NCBI RefSeq assembly: GCF_900110865.1
Contig: NZ_FOFD01000003.1
Coordinates: 558,001 to 622,000, forward strand
Direction: 5' to 3'
From: Natrinema salaciae
GTDB taxonomy: Archaea; Halobacteriota; Halobacteria; Halobacteriales; Natrialbaceae
Length of the DNA stretch: 64,000 bases
This document shows, piece after piece, positions 17,392 through 26,973 of this stretch; within the stretch, counting starts at the first letter, position 1; every line of letters begins with the position of its first letter. Under the pieces are notes generated by a model. It worked only from the letters and a program-made list of their open reading frames with translations. It was not told the origin of the DNA and searched no databases. Made by a program: the position numbers and the translations under genes.

Positions 17392-20319
17392 ATGCAAGAT
17401 ACGACACCCAAAGACATCGGTTCGCTCTCATTCGGGCTCATGGAGCCCGAGGAGTACCGGGAGATGAGCGCGACGAAGATCATCACGGCCGACACCTACG
17501 ACGACGACGGGTTCCCCATCGACATGGGGCTGATGGATCCGCGACTCGGCGTGATCGACCCCGGCCTCGAGTGCAAGACCTGCGGCAAACACTCGGGGTC
17601 GTGTAACGGCCACTTCGGCCACATCGAACTGGCCGCACCCGTGATCCACGTCGGCTTCACGAAGCTCATCCGGCGGCTCCTGCGCGGGACCTGTCGGGAG
17701 TGTTCGAAACTGCTCCTCACCGAGGACGAGCGAGACGAGTTCCGTGACCAGCTCGACGAATCCCGAAAGCTGAGCCGGGACCTGAACGACGTGACCAAGG
17801 CCGCGATCCGGCAGGCTCGCAAGAAGGATCGGTGTCCGTTCTGTGGCGAAATCCAGTACGACATCGACCACGAGAAGCCGACGACCTACTACGAGGTCCA
17901 GCAGGTACTGACCAGCGAGTACTCCCAGCGCATCGCCGGTGCGATGCAAGGCGACGAGGAGGCTGGCGTCGAACGAACGACGCCGGACGAGCTCGCCGAG
18001 GAGACCGAGATCGAACTGACTCGAGTCAACGAGATCCTGTCCGGTTCCTTCCGCCCGCGCGAGAGCCAGCGCAAGGCCATCGAGAAGGCACTGGACATCG
18101 ACCTGACCGAGGAGGACACGAACAAGCTGATGCCCAGCGACATCCGGGACTGGTTCGAGAACATTCCGGACGAGGACATCGAAGTGCTGGGGATCAATCC
18201 CGAACGGTCGCGTCCCGAGTGGATGATCCTCACCGTCCTCCCGGTACCGCCGGTCACCGCGCGGCCGTCGATCACGCTGGACAACGGTCAGCGCTCCGAG
18301 GACGACCTCACGCACAAGCTGGTGGACATCATCCGGATCAACCAGCGGTTCATGGAGAACCGCGAGGCCGGCGCGCCCCAGCTGATCATCGAGGACCTCT
18401 GGGAGCTGCTCCAGTACCACGTGACGACGTTCATGGACAACGAGATTTCGGGCACCCCGCCGGCGCGACACCGCTCCGGTCGCCCGCTCAAGACCCTCTC
18501 CCAGCGGCTGAAGGGCAAGGAGGGGCGCTTCCGGGGGTCGCTCTCCGGGAAGCGCGTAAACTTCTCGGCCCGGACCGTCATCTCGCCCGACCCGACCCTC
18601 TCCCTGAACGAGGTCGGCGTCCCGGATCGCGTCGCGAAGGAGATGACCCAGACGATGAACGTCACCGAGCGCAATCTCCAGGACGCCCGCCGGTTCGTCT
18701 CGAACGGTCCCGAGGGCCATCCCGGCGCGAACTACGTCCGGCGACCGGACGGCCGCCGGCTGAAGGTGACCGAGAAGAACTGCGAGCAACTCGCCGAGAA
18801 GGTCGAACCCGGGTGGGAGGTCAACCGCCACATGATCGACGGCGACATCGTCATCTTCAACCGCCAGCCGTCGCTCCACCGGATGTCGATCATGGCCCAC
18901 GAGGTCGTGGTCATGCCGTACAAGACGTTCCGGCTGAACACCGTCGTCTGTCCGCCGTACAACGCCGACTTCGACGGCGACGAAATGAACATGCACGCGC
19001 TGCAAAACGAGGAGGCCCGCGCCGAGGCCCGCGTCCTCATGCGCGTACAGGAGCAGATCCTCTCGCCGCGGTTCGGTGAGAACATCATCGGGGCCATTCA
19101 GGACCACATCTCCGGGATGTACCTCCTGACCCACGACAACCCCCGCTTCAACGAGACCCAGGCGCTGGACCTGCTCCGTGCGACCCGGATCGACGAACTG
19201 CCCGAGCCCAGCGGCGTCGACGACGAGGGCACGCCGTTCTGGACCGGGTACGACGTCTTCTCCGAACTGCTGCCCGACGATCTCGACCTCGAGTTCACGG
19301 GCACCGTCGGCGACGAGGTCGTCATCGAGGACGGCCAGTTGCTTCAGGGAACCATCGCCGAGGACGAGGTCGGCGAGTTCGGCGGCGAGATCGTCGACAC
19401 GATCACGAAAGTCTACGGCAACACCCGCGCTCGGATCTTCATCAACGAGGTCTCGACGCTGGCGATGCGTGCGATCATGCACTTCGGGTTCTCGATCGGG
19501 ATCGACGACGAGACCATCCCCGAGGAAGCCCAGTCCCGCATCGACGAGACGATCGACGACGCCAACGACCGCGTCGAAGAGCTGATCGAGGCCTACGAGC
19601 GCAACGAACTCGAGAGTCTCCCCGGTCGGACGATCGACGAGACCCTCGAGATGAAGATCATGCAGACGCTGAGCCGAGCGCGTGACAACGCGGGGAACAT
19701 CGCCGACGAGCACTTCTCGGACGAGAACCCGGCCGTCGTCATGGCCAACTCCGGTGCCCGTGGGTCGATGCTCAACCTGACACAGATGGCCGGTGCGGTC
19801 GGCCAGCAGGCGGTTCGCGGCGAGCGGATCAACCGCGGGTACGAGGACCGAACGCTCTCTCACTACGAGCCAAACGACCTCTCGGCGGAGGCACACGGGT
19901 TCGTCGAGAACTCCTACACGAGCGGGCTCACGCCCCGGGAGTTCTTCTTCCACGCGATGGGCGGCCGCGAGGGCCTGGTCGACACTGCGGTCCGGACCTC
20001 CAAGTCCGGCTACCTGCAGCGCCGGCTGATCAACGCCCTCTCGGAGCTCGAGACCCAGTACGACGGGACGGTCCGTGACACGTCGGACACGATCGTTCAG
20101 TTCGAGTTCGGTGAAGACGGGACCTCGCCGGTCAAGGTCTCCTCCGGCGACGAGAACACCATCGACGTCGAACACATCGCCAGCCGCGTACTCGACTCGG
20201 AGTTCGAATCCGAGGAGGAGCGCGAGGAGTTCCTCGGCTCCAGGCCGCGGCCGACGAACCTCTCCGAACACGCCGACGATCGCCTCGCCGAGGGCACGGA
20301 GGTGAGCTCCGATGACTGA
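17392..20319 (+). CDS. rpoA1: DNA-directed RNA polymerase subunit A' (Rpo1N)
   Basis: N-terminal part of the split largest subunit, 975 residues. The clamp zinc motifs are [17 protein letters not shown] and CRECSK ... CPFCGEI. The catalytic magnesium loop [15 protein letters not shown] is intact, and the rudder/lid region and bridge helix ([19 protein letters not shown]) are present. The C-terminus ([16 protein letters not shown]) is the segment that reappears, decayed, at about 23.1 kb. The last 8 bases overlap the start of rpoA''. Confidence 0.98.
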
Positions 20320-21505
20320 GGTCGCCTACGACGTCGACGACGACACGATTGCGGTCGTCGAGGACACCGACCTGCCCCGACGGCTCAAAAACGAGGTCTA
20401 CGAGACGCTCGAGGCCCGCGACGGCGCGACGGTCGAGGAGGCCGACGAACTCGCGAAGGCCGTCGAGACCCGGTATCTCGACACGCGCGTCGATCCGCTC
20501 GACCCGGTCGGGACGGTTTCGGCGCAGTCGATCGGCGAGCCCGGGACGCAGCTGACGATGAACACGTTCCACTACGCCGGCGTCGCGGAGATCGACGTGA
20601 CCCAGGGGCTGCCGCGGCTGATCGAACTGGTCGACGCGCGGAAGACCCCGGACACGCCGATGATGACCGTCTACCTCGAGGGCGAGTACGCCACCGAGCG
20701 CGAGCGGGCCCACGAGGTCGTCTGGAAGATCGAGGCCACCAAGATCCTCGCGCTGGGTGACGTGTCGACGAACGTCGCGGACATGCGCGTCCAGATCGCG
20801 CTCAACGAGGACACGCTCAACGAACGGATGATCACGGCCGAGGAAGTCGCCGAGATCATCGAGGACTCGCTGGGCGTGAGCACGGTTCAGCAAGGCACCC
20901 AGATCGAGTTCGGCCCCGAGGAGCCCTCGTATCGGGACCTCCTCCAGCTGGTCGAGGAGCTGCGGGATATCACCTTCAAGGGGATCGAGGACATCTCGCG
21001 GGTCGTCATCCGACGGGAGGAACTCGAGGACGGCGAGGAGTTCGTCCTCTACACCGAGGGGTCGGCCTTCGGCGACGTCCTCGAGATCGAGGGCGTCGAC
21101 GCCTCGCGGACGACGTGTAACAACATCCACGAGATCCACCGCAACCTCGGCATCGAGGCCGCCCGCGAGGCGATCATCGAGGAGACGAACAATACCCTGG
21201 CCGAACAGGGGCTCGACGACGTGAACGTCCGACACCTGATGCTCGTCGCGGACATCATGACCAACCGCGGCGAGATCGAGTCGATCGGTCGCCACGGCAT
21301 CTCGGGCTCGAAGGAGTCCGTCCTCGCCCGTGCGGCGTTCGAGGTGACGGTCAACCACCTGCTCAACGCGGCGATCCACGGCGAGATCGACGACCTGGAC
21401 GGCGTGACGGAGAACGTCATCGTCGGCAAGCCAATCAAGCTCGGCACCGGCGACGTCGATCTCCGGATGGGATCGACCACCTCCGGCAGCAGTCAGGCCG
21501 ACTGA
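20312..21505 (+). CDS. rpoA2: DNA-directed RNA polymerase subunit A'' (Rpo1C)
   Basis: C-terminal part of the largest subunit, 397 residues, with the trigger-loop region [33 protein letters not shown] and the jaw, and the conserved [21 protein letters not shown]. Starts with ATGACTGA overlapping the rpoA' stop, so translation is probably coupled. A decayed copy of its first ~40 codons lies at about 23.2 kb. The nusA gene begins 3 bases after its stop. Confidence 0.98.
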
Positions 21506-21508
21506 TCG

Positions 21509-21934
21509 ATGGGCGTTACCCTCGACGACGACGCCCGTCAGTATCTCGCCGCGTTCGAGGACGTGACGGGCGTGGACGGTCGGGACTGTCTCGTCACGGA
21601 GGACGGTGACAGCCTCCTGATCGTCGTCGAATCAGACGGTATGAGCGAGGCAATCGGCCCCGGCGGCCGGACGGTCCAGCGGTTCGAGGATCGAGTCGAC
21701 GCTCGGGTTCGTCTCGTCGAAGCCGCGGACGATCCCGAGGCGTTCGTCGCGAACGTGTTCGCGCCGGCGGCGGTGTACAACGTCACGATCAGCGAGAACG
21801 ACGACACCGTCGCGTACGTGGAGGTCGCCGAAGACGACCGCGGCGTCGCGATCGGGGCGAACGGGCGAACGATCGACGCCGCTCGCACCCTCGCGGAGCG
21901 GCACTTCGGGATCGACGACATCCAACTTATCTGA
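21509..21934 (+). CDS. nusA: Transcription factor NusA, archaeal type
   Basis: Archaeal NusA of 141 residues: two KH RNA-binding domains without the bacterial N-terminal polymerase-binding domain. KH1 shows GPGGRTVQRFEDR around residues 50-62 and KH2 shows GVAIGANGRTIDAARTL around 111-127. The 159 bases at 21769-21927, covering KH2, are identical to 23495-23653 in the decayed copy downstream. In haloarchaea nusA usually runs straight into rps12; here 2.9 kb of other sequence intervenes. Confidence 0.95.
   Translation: MGVTLDDDARQYLAAFEDVTGVDGRDCLVTEDGDSLLIVVESDGMSEAIGPGGRTVQRFEDRVDARVRLVEAADDPEAFVANVFAPAAVYNVTISENDDTVAYVEVAEDDRGVAIGANGRTIDAARTLAERHFGIDDIQLI
21769..21927 (+). repeat. 159-bp identical repeat, copy inside nusA
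   Basis: Every base from GGCGGTGTACAACGTCACG to GACGACATCCAACT matches 23495-23653. It encodes the second KH domain. Flanking sequence on both sides differs between the copies, and the upstream flank has a 3-base deletion in the second. Confidence 0.95.
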
Positions 21935-22024
21935 TTATTCGGATCAGTCGCGGTTCGGCGGCGGGAGCCGCGACGAAGAATCAACCCGGCCTATCGAGGC
22001 ACGCAAGGTGGTTCGATCCCTACT

Positions 22025-22189
22025 CAAGAATCCTGTCGCATCGTCGCCGCCACCGACGCGGTCCTCCTGAATGCCTACGGGATCAGCGCGGAGAAGAATC
22101 ACGACGTCTACGACTCGTTCGTTCTCGCACTCGCGTGGGTTCACGAGGCCCACAAGGGGCGCGCTCGGGGCGGAGCTCCCGGCGAGTAG
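22025..22189 (+). pseudogene. Fragment resembling the C-terminal half of a PIN-domain (VapC-like) protein
   Basis: An open stretch without its own start reads RIVAATDAVLLNAYGISAEK and continues NHDVYDSFVLALAWVHEAHK before a stop at 22187. The pattern of a helix with A-x-D, then D-x-Y-D-x-F and ALA, is what the second half of PIN nucleases shows, with the aspartates as catalytic candidates. No N-terminal half is visible upstream, where nusA ends. Identification is by pattern only. The stretch 21935-22262 holds nothing else recognisable. Confidence 0.4.
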
Positions 22190-22262
22190 GGACTGACGCG
22201 ATCACCGAACCGGGTTAGTAATGATCTCGGCCCCGTCGCGACGCGGGGACGTTCGACGACCC

Positions 22263-22979
22263 TCAACACCAGTCGCAGAACTCGCAGCAGGGGCCATCGC
22301 TTGACGGGTGACAGCCCCCCCTCCCCCAGCTCCCCCAGTAGCAGGACGATGGCTCCCCCTGCGAACCGTAACAGCAGTGTAGTTCTCGTTCCGCGGTATT
22401 GAACCCGGGTCTCCAGTAACAAACGCTGCCGACAACGCAGGATTGCGTGGTGAAGTCTCCGCTCCTGTCTTGGTCGGCGATGACCGAGTCCTTGCCCTCT
22501 CCGATGACGGCGTACTGCCTGTCTTGGTGTGGGAGTACGGCGACGAGCAACTGGGTCCCCTCGATTTCCGTCTTGAACTGGACGCGGGCACTGTCCCCTT
22601 CCTCCGTGACTTCCGCGGTGACGACGACTCCTTCGTCGGTTTCGACGTACCGTTCCATCGGCACGGGCTCGGTCGGGATCACCGATCCGGGCTGATCGGT
22701 TTGGATCAACCCGCGTTCGACGAGTTCGGTCACCAACGGCCGCGCCCGGGACCGAGCAATTTTCTCGACCGCCTCGGCGGACTGAAACTCCGACCGCTTC
22801 CGCTCGAGTTGTTTGATGCGATTGTCGTCCGCTCGTGCTTTCCCGCTGTCAGCGAACGCCGACCCGCTCATGCCTCCAATTGTCGAGGCGCCCGCGCCGA
22901 CGCTGCCGAGCACCTGCCGTCGTGACACACTTTCCTGAGCGACGCCCTGATCTTGCCGCCTATCTTCATTGCTGGGCAT
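22263..22979 (-). CDS. Tat-exported precursor with ten-cysteine C-terminal domain (halocin-like candidate)
   Basis: A 238-residue protein not assigned to a known family. Residues 18-45 form a Tat signal (SRRQVLGSVGAGASTIGG, then SAFAD). Residues 50-175 are charged, partly helical (RIKQLERKRSEFQSAEAVEK) and partly beta, with no cysteine. The last 59 residues hold all ten cysteines, including two CC pairs, and are rich in Gly, Ser, Trp and Tyr, ending CCEFCDWC. Exported precursors with a ten-cysteine C-terminal peptide recall halocin C8, whose N-terminal part gives the immunity protein; no sequence similarity to it is visible. TATA-like TTTATA at 23005-23010 lies 26-31 bases upstream. The gene runs against the rpo operon. 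Confidence 0.8.
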   Translation of the reverse strand: MPSNEDRRQDQGVAQESVSRRQVLGSVGAGASTIGGMSGSAFADSGKARADDNRIKQLERKRSEFQSAEAVEKIARSRARPLVTELVERGLIQTDQPGSVIPTEPVPMERYVETDEGVVVTAEVTEEGDSARVQFKTEIEGTQLLVAVLPHQDRQYAVIGEGKDSVIADQDRSGDFTTQSCVVGSVCYWRPGFNTAERELHCCYGSQGEPSSCYWGSWGRGGCHPSSDGPCCEFCDWC

Positions 22980-23004
22980 AATTGCATACTACTGTATTAT
23001 TTCC

Positions 23005-23010
23005 TATAAA
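23005..23010 (-). promoter_or_regulatory. TATA box of the ten-cysteine protein gene
   Basis: Minus-strand TTTATA, 26-31 bases before ATG at 22979, within an A+T-rich patch (22980-23025) unlike the surrounding G+C-rich DNA. Confidence 0.55.
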
Positions 23011-23063
23011 TGTTTTCAATGGTAATGGGTGGAAGTTCCGTGGGTGGTCCGCCTTGGACACCG

Positions 23064-23330
23064 TCGACCGCGTCCTCGCCTCGGAGTTCAACTCCGAAGT
23101 GGCCAAAGATAGTTCCCTCGGGACGACAACCGAGCCGACGAATCTTTCGGAGCACGCGAACAATCGCCTGTTCGAGGGCTCGGAGGTGGCCTCCAATTAC
23201 TAACGTCGACTACGACGTCGGCGACGACATGATCGCAGTCGTCGAGGATACCGATCTGCCCCGGCAGCTCAAGGACAAGGTCTACGAAACCCTCGAGGAT
23301 CGCGGCGGCGCGACCGTCGAGGACGCCGAC
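23064..23330 (+). pseudogene. Decayed copy of the rpoA'/rpoA'' junction
   Basis: Translation gives DRVLASEFNSE ... [18 protein letters not shown], matching the rpoA' end ([11 protein letters not shown] ... [18 protein letters not shown]). After its stop the next frame gives [19 protein letters not shown] and RQLKDKVYETLEDRGGATVE, matching the first ~40 residues of rpoA''. The start codon of the rpoA'' copy and the ATGACTGA overlap are destroyed. The copy stops after GATVEDADGADE, and the remaining ~350 codons of rpoA'' are deleted. Confidence 0.88.
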
Positions 23331-23660
23331 GGCGCAGACGAACGGCTCCTCGTCATCTCGAGCGGGCAGATGAGTGCGGCGATCGGTCACGGCGGGCGCA
23401 CCGTGAAGCGCTACGAGTAGCGGGTCGGGAAACCGATTCGGCTCGTCGAAGACGCAGACGATCCCGAAACGTTCGTCACGAACGTCCTCGCACCGGCGGT
23501 GTACAACGTCACGATCAGCGAGAACGACGACACCGTCGCGTACGTGGAGGTCGCCGAAGACGACCGCGGCGTCGCGATCGGGGCGAACGGGCGAACGATC
23601 GACGCCGCTCGCACCCTCGCGGAGCGGCACTTCGGGATCGACGACATCCAACTGCTCTGA
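23331..23660 (+). pseudogene. Decayed copy of nusA
   Basis: Joined directly to the rpoA'' remnant. It begins within KH1 (RLLVISSGQMSAAIGHGGRT, compare SLLIVVESDGMSEAIGPGGRT in nusA), meets an in-frame stop after KRYE at about 23418, then continues RLVEDADDPETFVTNVLAPA and the whole KH2 domain to a stop at 23658. The KH2 part is identical in DNA to the real nusA; the KH1 part is clearly diverged. No intact start remains. Confidence 0.88.
23495..23653 (+). repeat. 159-bp identical repeat, copy inside the nusA pseudogene
   Basis: Matches 21769-21927 at every position, including all third codon positions, while the adjacent 150 bases of the same pseudogene are diverged. Confidence 0.95.
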
Positions 23661-23751
23661 CGGCGACCGCGGGTCGATCGCTCGAGATCCGGTTCGACGG
23701 GACTCGACGACGTCGATCCGCCCTGCCGGCTGCGGTTCGTCTCGCTTCTGG

Positions 23752-24501
23752 CTACCGACTCGAGTTCGAGTCGGAGTCGGGTGCTGTCGTCTCCGAGCCG
23801 TTGGTCGGTGGGTCCGCGCGGCGCTCGTTGCTCGGCTCGCTCGCGTTCGCGATCACGTCCGTGGGTGGGAACGATTCGTACTCGGGCAGCTCGATTCGGT
23901 CCCAGTCGTCGCCGGCGACCTCCAGGCGGTCCGAATCGATGTCGGGTTCGGTCACGTGATCCCCGTCGTCCGTTTTGGTCCGGTTCGGGTCGGCATCCGA
24001 CTCGGTTCGGTTTCGATCGTCGTTTGCCGGTGATTGTGGGCCTGGATCGGCGGCGGTGACACCGTCTACCGAAACGATCCACCGTCCCGACGCGACGACT
24101 CGATCGATGGTAAACACGATCCAGCGAGGGAACCGATTCGTCGTCACCGAGACGGTCTCGTGGCTCGTTCCCTCGTATTTCGTCCCGTCTTCGCGGTCCT
24201 CTTTCGTCCGATCCTCGGTCGGAAGCGCGTTCCACGCTAGATCGCCGTGTTCGATGCGGTCGAGTTCCCGGCCCCGGGCGTCGACCAGGTGGGAGCGAAC
24301 GCCGTAGAAGCCCTCGTCTTCGTCGAGACCGTCCAGTTCGTACGCCGCGTCGTAGGTCACGTCCCACGTCCAGCCGTCGTCGGCCTCGCCGACGACCCGC
24401 ACGTCTCGCGGCTCGAGTCGGATCGATGTCCCCGTTTCCGAACACCCCGACAGAAGCGGGACGGTCGCGACGACCCCCGCGATAACCGTCCGTCTGTTCA
24501 T
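23752..24501 (-). CDS. Tat-exported lipoprotein of unknown function
   Basis: A 249-residue protein with a lipoprotein signal: [20 protein letters not shown], twin arginines at 3-4 and a lipobox cysteine at 20. The mature part begins with a predicted beta domain of about 130 residues ([36 protein letters not shown]) and ends in about 90 residues of low-complexity Asp, Glu, Thr, Ser and Pro, a typical haloarchaeal surface linker. No family recognised. It is one of the accessory genes splitting nusA from rps12. Confidence 0.75.
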
Positions 24502-24780
24502 CGCGCTAGTATTATTCTACCGGTTGATATATCTAGCTCACCGGTAGTTGCCGACGCGCTGACCCGCCGCCGAGTCGCCTCGTACTCGTGGGATCGCCGG
24601 CACTGTTCTCTCTCAGGCGGCAATCCGATCGATCCGGTTCCCGGAGAGAGCTCGTCGGACCGGGCCCGTACCGATAGTCGGGCGGGACGGTCCGAGAGCG
24701 ACTGTCCGGGGACGAAACGCGCTCAGATTTCTTCGTTGGGGTCCATCGTCGGTTCTCGAGGCGTAACGCCGGATCGAAAC

Positions 24781-24814
24781 GGGTCGCTTAAGTGCCTCCG
24801 TCGGATAGCGACCC
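24781..24814 (+). promoter_or_regulatory. Promoter with flanking inverted repeat before rps12
   Basis: GGGTCGCT (24781-24788) and AGCGACCC (24807-24814) form a perfect 8-base inverted repeat. Between them lies GCTTAAGTG, a TATA-like box ending about 24 bases before the ATG at 24817. Since nusA is 2.9 kb away, rps12-rps7 needs its own promoter, and this is the best candidate. The palindrome could be an operator. The rest of 24502-24780 shows no gene. Confidence 0.55.
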
Positions 24815-24816
24815 CC

Positions 24817-25245
24817 ATGGCAAACGGCAAATACGCCGCGCGCAAGCTCAAGAAGGACCGCCAGAATCAGCGGTGGTCCGACTCGGACTACGCGCGCCGC
24901 GCACGTGGACTTCGCGAGAAGTCCGACCCGCTCGAGGGTGCGCCTCAGGCTCGCGGTATCGTACTGGAAAAGGTCGGCATCGAAGCCAAACAGCCCAACT
25001 CGGCGATCCGAAAGTGCGTTCGGGTCCAGCTGATCAAGAACGGGAAGCAGGTCACCGCGTTCTGTCCCGGTGACGGCGCTATTTCGTTCATCGACGAGCA
25101 CGACGAAGTCACCATCGCCGGAATCGGTGGGGCGAAGGGTCGTGCGATGGGTGACCTCTCCGGTGTCAACTACAAGGTCGACAAGGTCAACGGCGTCGCG
25201 CTGAAAGAACTCGTTCGCGGGAACGCGGAAAAGCCGGTGCGATAA
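24817..25245 (+). CDS. rps12: 30S ribosomal protein S12
   Basis: Archaeal S12 (eukaryotic uS12/S23 type), 142 residues, part of the decoding centre. Conserved stretches are [40 protein letters not shown] and [10 protein letters not shown]; the loop equivalent to the streptomycin site is present. ATG at 24817 begins the conserved N-terminus. Two bases separate it from rps7, so the two are surely cotranscribed. Confidence 0.98.
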
Positions 25246-25953: not shown

Positions 25954-26973
25954 ATGTCGGAAGACAACGGGAAGGAGATCGAAATTAACCGCCGATCGGT
26001 ACTCGAACGGACCGGTGTCGTGTCGACAGTCGCGCTCCTGGGAACGACGGGAGCGACGGCGGAGGACGGTGACTCCAGAAAACGAGCGCGAGACGGAGAC
26101 CGAATCCGCAACGAAATCGAACTCGACACGTCGTCGTACGACGATCTCGAGGAGGCTTCCCTGACGTTCCTCGAACGAGGCCGACGACGGATCGTCCGGA
26201 CGAGAATTCACTCGGCACACGACACGGCTGCGGGTGGGACGACGACCGACAGCGATCCGACGAAGATCTCCTATTCCGTTTCGCTGGCCCCTCTCGGAGC
26301 GGGCATCGGACGAACGGACGGGTATTCGACCGACGAACCCGACATCGAATCGATCGACGAGGGTGACGTGGTACTCGAGCGAAACGAACGGACGACGTCC
26401 GTCGACGATCACTTCGAGGCGGACACGGTCACCGGTTCCGGTTCCGGTTCCGGTTCCAGGGACGTCGGGACCGCGGGTCTGGACGACCCGGCGTTCGACC
26501 AGCTCGGGGATGCGGTCACGTATCTCGAGACGAACTCCAGCGAATGCGGGTCGCTCTGTCGAACGAATCTCGTAATCGAGCGGTCGTGCGATGCGACGTG
26601 CGAGACGTACGACATCGACGACTCGATCGGGGTGTTCGAGACGGTCAGCGGCGATACGTGCGACGGTGAGGAGTTCGGTGATCGGTTCCCGTGCCACGAT
26701 ATCCCCTACATCTACGACTGTGATATTCCGGATGCGTTCGACACGACGTGGCACACAGATGCTACCGACTACGGCCTCGCCTCGGCCGACGCGGCGTACT
26801 ACAATACCGATTTCCCGGTCATCCCGAAAACGACTGCCGACCACGACCAGGAGACGTGGTACGACGGGACCACGCTACACGTCGAGGGAACCGTCGACCA
26901 CTCGGGGACCCTCGGGTTCAGAACCGCGATTCGAACGTTACTGAAAAGCGACGCTGGCGTCGTTCTCTACTGA
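25954..26973 (+). CDS. Tat-exported protein with cysteine-rich middle region, unknown function
   Basis: A 339-residue protein with a Tat-like signal (NRRSVLERTGVVSTVALLG, residues 12-30). Residues 60-160 are acidic and may be a pro-region or linker, ending in GSGSGSGS encoded by four GGTTCC repeats at 26434-26457. Residues 188-260 contain seven cysteines (around NSSECGSLCRTNLV, ERSCDATCE, DTCDGEE, FPCHD, YDCDI). The tail is Asp-, Thr- and Tyr-rich. No known family recognised. Like the protein at 22263-22979 it is exported, cysteine-bearing and sits inside the ribosomal cluster, but the two show no clear sequence similarity. Confidence 0.75.
   Translation: MSEDNGKEIEINRRSVLERTGVVSTVALLGTTGATAEDGDSRKRARDGDRIRNEIELDTSSYDDLEEASLTFLERGRRRIVRTRIHSAHDTAAGGTTTDSDPTKISYSVSLAPLGAGIGRTDGYSTDEPDIESIDEGDVVLERNERTTSVDDHFEADTVTGSGSGSGSRDVGTAGLDDPAFDQLGDAVTYLETNSSECGSLCRTNLVIERSCDATCETYDIDDSIGVFETVSGDTCDGEEFGDRFPCHDIPYIYDCDIPDAFDTTWHTDATDYGLASADAAYYNTDFPVIPKTTADHDQETWYDGTTLHVEGTVDHSGTLGFRTAIRTLLKSDAGVVLY

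Follow-up and report, generated by a model that had tools for sequence, protein, structure and literature searches.

ProC8, the precursor of halocin C8, is exported by the Tat pathway and yields HalI together with halocin C8 itself, a peptide of 76 residues (PMC11509114); according to the title of Mei et al. 2008, as cited in that article, HalI depends on an N-terminal helix-loop-helix. In Haloferax mediterranei, the secreted precursor HmHapP (HFX_0892) is converted by an extracellular protease into an antagonistic fragment, which corresponds to a helical N-terminus, with cysteine unmentioned in the main text of the paper (PMC12893001). Two bacterial systems, ComQ-ComX of Bacillus and PalQ-PalX of Paenibacillus, join a peptide gene to an adjoining synthase-like gene. 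All characterised trans-IDS-like prenyltransferases target Trp (PMC13290415), PalQ requires a C-terminal Trp (PMC10853753), and the motif criteria for the ComQ/PalQ type are a first Asp-rich motif that is kept and a second that is degenerate and preceded by a conserved Gln (PMC10853753, PMC13290415).

The precursor gene described here lies in a stretch of 64,000 nucleotides from Natrinema salaciae (the window, whose positions are used below). A preliminary description had placed it correctly at 22263-22979 and left the strand, which is minus, unstated; the Tat signal, the Cys-free middle part and the end with ten cysteines that it had read are all present in the open reading frame, the end being 58 residues long. 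The features of the gene and of its surroundings are:

22263..22979, minus strand: whole precursor open reading frame, 238 aa, with the ATG at 22979 and the stop at 22263-22265
22851..22979, minus strand: Tat signal, residues 1-43, with RR at 20-21, a hydrophobic stretch and SAFA at its end (about residue 43)
22440..22850, minus strand: Cys-free middle domain, residues 44-180, predicted to form a helical hairpin and then a beta-sheet
22266..22439, minus strand: ten-Cys tail, residues 181-238, 58 residues, ending CDWC
23005..23010, minus strand: TATA-box-like TTTATA (TATAAA when read on the plus strand), 26-31 bp upstream of the ATG, recognised by sequence only
23068..23331, plus strand: partial copy of the rpoA1/rpoA2 junction, 265 bp, 78% identical to 20184-20447
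23370..23660, plus strand: partial copy of the nusA end, 294 bp, 88% identical to 21641-21934

The first cysteine of the precursor is residue 181 and the ten cysteines of residues 181-238 include two CC pairs; the last residues are CCEFCDWC, with Trp second to last. The gene had been credited with its own TATA box, for which the TTTATA is a plausible candidate, and the position of this element suggests a short or absent 5' leader. Homologues that can be aligned with the open reading frame along its length support its being a real gene.

The halocin C8 precursor resembles the window gene in being a single open reading frame with a Tat signal, in which an N-terminal part is followed by a C-terminal peptide with ten cysteines. 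The middle domain of the window precursor begins with a predicted helical hairpin, comparable to the N-terminal helix-loop-helix that the title of Mei et al. gives as needed for HalI. The C-terminal parts differ: the halocin C8 domain has long hydrophobic stretches, which are absent from the window tail, for which strands are predicted. The halocin C8 profile TIGR04449 had no match to the window precursor at E<=10, hhalign of the tail against the C8 domain gave a probability of 0.1%, and hmmsearch of the middle domain and the N-terminal part of halocin C8, run both ways, did no better than reversed sequences. An hhalign probability of 99.5% for the N-terminal parts proved to be an artefact, as a reversed profile gave 99.4%. 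Homology with halocin C8 was rejected, because TIGR04449 is unmatched and neither the middle nor the tail profile exceeds its reversed control. The L019 protein (G030) matches halocin_C8 weakly and below threshold (E 0.18), and its resemblance to the window precursor (P0001) is mainly in the signal and the middle; it was not used as evidence. The preliminary description saw no sequence similarity between the two proteins, and the profile tests agree; of its halocin-C8-like precursor, the shared plan of signal, Cys-free partner and Cys-rich end holds, and an evolutionary link finds no profile support. The plan is an analogy, and the window protein would at most work like halocin C8, in which case its tail may be antimicrobial and its N-terminal part may confer immunity.

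Neither Pfam nor NCBIfam has a model that matches the window precursor, and no close relative emerged when named genomes were scanned by pattern. A search of the proteins of 125 genomes from its taxonomic family returned weak matches, some of them full-length. When a profile of seven sequences (A1) was searched against 392 genomes of the order, 50 had a match at E <= 2e-9, across eight taxonomic families; weaker matches, often to the Tat signal only, were left out of this count. The same search showed that members occur in tandem pairs and triplets and that several copies carry an internal stop. All 63 intact members that we read have an RR signal, a middle part of about 130 residues and a Cys-rich end. 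In the full-length alignment, which comprises 61 members, the RR, P150 and several cysteines are invariant, and the motifs of the middle domain include ELLxEL..GYI.S and VxPE...YAVV. The peptide family falls outside the families of Pfam, NCBIfam, PADLOC and the PDB: in a Pfam/NCBIfam scan of the 61 members Tat-signal models alone recur beyond a few results, the family profile gave weak N-terminal matches to PDB sequences that are largely Tat signals (best E 0.009), and PHROGs and PADLOC gave no convincing phage or defence match. The window gene belongs to a large haloarchaeal family of predicted exported proteins with a Cys-rich, probably disulfide-bonded end; their export is strongly indicated. 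The profile search proposed in the preliminary description thus shows that the precursor is not an orphan, and its view of an exported Cys-rich C-terminal peptide of an undescribed family agrees with the common plan of the relatives; the family itself had not been foreseen.

The number of cysteines in the exported part ranges from 6 to 20 and is never odd among the 63 intact members (45 clusters when collapsed at 45% identity), with counts of 6, 8, 10, 12, 14, 16 and 20 and very variable spacing. The sole odd number belongs to L042, a copy with an internal stop. Cysteine accounts for 21% of the residues in the tails versus less than 1 per 2,000 in the middle stretches, where the exception seen is one cysteine in L116. 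Among 13 pairs with at least 55% identity in the middle domain, ten keep every cysteine and have tails that are 56-88% identical; the other three, with a tail identity of 36-41%, differ by four in cysteine number (12 versus 16, 8 versus 12). The pairs with such remodelled tails are the L086 pair and one L099 copy compared with the other L099 copy and with L117. The even number and the retention of cysteines between orthologues, whose loss would have spoken against the original reading, point to disulfides without proving them. The pattern is that expected of disulfide-bonded domains kept by selection, and disulfide bonds in the family tails are strongly indicated, even if an even number would equally fit paired metal ligands.

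An AlphaFold2 model of the window precursor, based on the 61-member alignment, has a mean pLDDT of 77. Confidence is highest for residues 51-160 of the middle domain (pLDDT 90-97), where helices predicted at 45-63 and 68-88 (hairpin 45-88) are followed by a beta-sheet. The tail is less confident than the middle, with values of 73-85 for residues 161-220 and 51-59 for the last 18, and strands are predicted at 176-188, 196-204 and 210-219 in this region. A Foldseek search of the model against the PDB gave no match at E <= 0.05 and the best VIA Z was 5.2, with no PDB fold standing out; on these results no solved fold was assigned and none was excluded.

The precursor gene splits the rpoB-rpoA1-rpoA2-nusA-rps12-rps7 operon, on the opposite strand, between nusA (ending at 21934) and rps12 (starting at 24817), and the interval 21935-24816 looks like an insertion. 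This had been proposed from the window alone, and the partial copies of nusA and of the rpoA1/rpoA2 junction support it, as does the comparison with related species. The 88% identity of the nusA copy is about equal to the nusA divergence between species of the genus (81-89% identity), which suggests that the segment came from a relative and left partial duplicates. Using nusA, we identified 28 congeneric species and fetched 27 loci from them: none of the 27 has a gene for a Cys-rich Tat protein within about 1.5 kb of nusA, and in the 12 that reach rps12 the nusA-rps12 gap is 242 to 1112 bp. In another genus (L112), a distant member of the family occupies the interval from nusA to rps12, so the site has seen repeated use. 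The inserted segment of the window also encodes, at 23752-24501 on the minus strand, a lipobox-type protein without family match, and an open fragment adjoining nusA at 22040-22190, VAATDAVLLNAYGISAEKNHDVYDSFVLALAWVHEAHKG, is perhaps a gene remnant. Between rps7 and the EF-2 region, positions 25954-26973 (plus strand) encode a protein of 339 aa with a Tat-like signal and a Cys-containing C-terminal part, which has no match in Pfam or NCBIfam.

Clustering of the neighbouring genes revealed a protein of about 283 residues, hereafter the partner, that adjoins family members in six loci: as a same-strand neighbour in L080 (in the window's own genome), L090, L095 and L098, and also in L083 and L115. 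A whole-genome search found 11 copies among the 392 genomes and added a seventh family locus, L043/L125 in G174, whose member ends GVGW. The sole copy in the window's genome, at G000:C4:632159-633001, accompanies a second family member at 633071-633742, and no partner gene was found beside the window gene 22263-22979. Two of the settings are:

G000:C4:632159-633742 (L080), same strand: second family member of the window's genome and partner, the member ending CGTCGW and lying directly upstream
L134:3820-4017 (+) and L135:4895-5008 (-): similar Trp-ending peptides of 34 residues, tail-to-tail with the partner gene, in two species of one genus

These 34-residue peptides, found at the copies of G292 and G192, end APW and GVW and are possible archaeal ComX-like peptides. 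The G025 copy is directly followed by a different Tat precursor, L133:3151-3849 (-), with a hydrophobic C-terminal part ending NNSWI, and the G040 copy is at a contig end. Further searches gave five divergent copies, of which L176 holds two and L177, L178 and L179 one each; at these five most divergent copies no recognisable Trp-ending neighbour was found, L178, which shares a contig with L132, and L179 being at contig ends. Viral contigs and plasmids were searched for the partner without a hit.

By fold and motifs, the partner is like a ComQ/PalQ trans-isoprenyl synthase. It has the motifs KR..RP and EYYDIxDDxxDxD and a degenerate second Asp motif; D102, D105, D106, D109 and D111 are invariant in the alignment, so that the first Asp-rich motif is kept, and Q213, D217 and Q220 are invariant in the second, degenerate one. 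Since canonical synthases also have a conserved Gln before the second Asp motif, this residue is consistent with the ComQ/PalQ type without being diagnostic. By profile, the partner matches nonaprenyl diphosphate synthase (E 1e-6), and a model of the L080:2657-3502 protein (pLDDT 89.6) resembles FPP/GGPP synthases with a Foldseek probability of 1.00.

A Trp at or near the C-terminus of the adjoining substrate is present in 10 of the 15 readable partner loci, the five without it being the most divergent. Within the family, Trp is among the last two residues in 9/9 partner-linked members versus 5/54 of the others (Fisher 8e-8, with rows that are not independent), and about 1.8% of unrelated neighbouring open reading frames have it there. 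The pattern is post hoc, having been spotted when the tails beside the partner gene were listed and then checked on further loci; in the tree, the partner-linked label falls on at least two separate branches. The enzyme is encoded elsewhere in the genome for three of the five Trp-ending members without an adjoining copy versus 4/49 other members (p 0.012), a tie that is suggestive only.

The family subset is comparable to ComQ-ComX and PalQ-PalX in the adjoining synthase-like gene, whose product retains the first Asp motif and has a degenerate second one. A further parallel is the Trp at or next to the C-terminus, a position that is strictly C-terminal for PalQ. Unlike ComX and PalX, the subset is archaeal, its substrates are mostly large Tat-exported, Cys-rich precursors, and the partner stands beside this subset only and not beside the window gene. 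By analogy with these systems, the partner probably prenylates Trp in the family subset. We would further suggest, tentatively and at somewhat less than even odds, that haloarchaea make Trp-prenylated, disulfide-rich exported peptides, the enzyme modifying the C-terminal Trp of family members and also that of the 34-residue peptides, with a lipidated, disulfide-bonded tail being released outside the cell as an antagonist or pheromone. A literature search, with most subscription journals outside its coverage, returned no report of the family, of a ComQ/PalQ-type enzyme in archaea or of Trp prenylation of exported peptides in archaea. The linkage to the partner was likewise unforeseen in the preliminary description.

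Most members, including that of the window, have no conserved neighbour, and no protease or receptor gene for the family was identified. In three genomes (L084, L089 and L094), tatC genes are found near family members. Another recurrent neighbour (L083:5704-6510, L099:5132-5899 and L117:2312-3079) has CxxC motifs together with a hydrophobic stretch (RGYLVPGTPTLTKRYFP); two copies were scanned against Pfam and gave no match, and the protein is a candidate for a role in maturation or immunity. Other neighbours, namely TatC1/C2, PQQ-propeller proteins, Hvo_1808-like lipoproteins and a membrane protein with RGYLVPGTP, each occur in two to three loci, too few to interpret.

We propose, with a probability of roughly 55%, that the precursor is exported and that its disulfide-rich tail is released to act outside the cell as a halocin-like antagonist or a signal, being probably Trp-prenylated in a subset of the family. 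The gene would encode a precursor that is exported by Tat and belongs to a new family of haloarchaea; its Cys-free middle domain, with a helical hairpin and beta-sheet, would probably be a carrier, chaperone or inhibitor domain. An extracellular protease would cleave off the C-terminal ~58 residues, and the disulfide-bonded tail would then most likely act as a halocin-like antagonist or as a signal between relatives; we infer this release and the action on other cells with moderate confidence. In the subset, the neighbouring ComQ/PalQ-like enzyme would probably prenylate the C-terminal Trp of the tail in the cytoplasm, before export. For the member of the window, which ends FCDWC, prenylation would be possible only in trans, perhaps by the partner whose gene lies elsewhere in the genome. 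HmHapP illustrates a possible maturation route of this kind, being a protein of another type that is likened to the window precursor by description only.

The main alternative to a released tail is an exported or surface protein that stays uncleaved, the middle and the disulfide-rich tail forming one stable extracellular structure for binding, adhesion or inhibition. In the model, beta-strands extend across the boundary of middle and tail (176-188); between most orthologues the tails have not evolved faster than the middles, and the short motif before the first cysteine is modestly enriched (25/63 versus an 8% background), with no strong cleavage motif. We nevertheless regard an uncleaved protein as unlikely, if worth serious attention, given that some paralogues (L086, L099, L108/L110) combine remodelled tails with similar middles and that some family members are linked to an enzyme for terminal modification. 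Much less probable still is a tail that binds Zn or Fe-S in a protein exported with its cofactor. Tat carries folded, cofactor-bearing proteins in bacteria and some tails have CxxC-like spacings, but the cysteine counts of 6-20 with very variable spacing do not favour a metal site, and no metal-binding Pfam domain recurs among the 61 members. Haloarchaea use Tat for much of their export, so that this route does not imply a cofactor. The preliminary description would have been contradicted by homologues in which the cysteine region is a metal domain of a larger enzyme, and no such homologue with a recognised metal site was found.

In another alternative, the product would be a peptide pheromone like ComX and not an antimicrobial. 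This is suggested by the ComQ/PalQ-like enzymes with terminal-Trp neighbours, among them the 34-residue peptides in two species of one genus; however, most members, the window's included, have no enzyme in cis, and no sensor-kinase pair was noticed beside the loci when the neighbours were looked over unsystematically. We consider a pheromone role for the family rather improbable, and favour the broader reading of a released antagonist or signal.

Few halocins are known at the sequence level and peptide signalling in archaea has been little explored. From this family come tens of candidates for exported peptides rich in disulfides, which share a clear precursor plan and lend themselves to expression and testing. 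In addition, the gene for the prenyltransferase-like partner leads to a direct prediction, that exported archaeal peptides would be prenylated on Trp, which can be checked by mass spectrometry.
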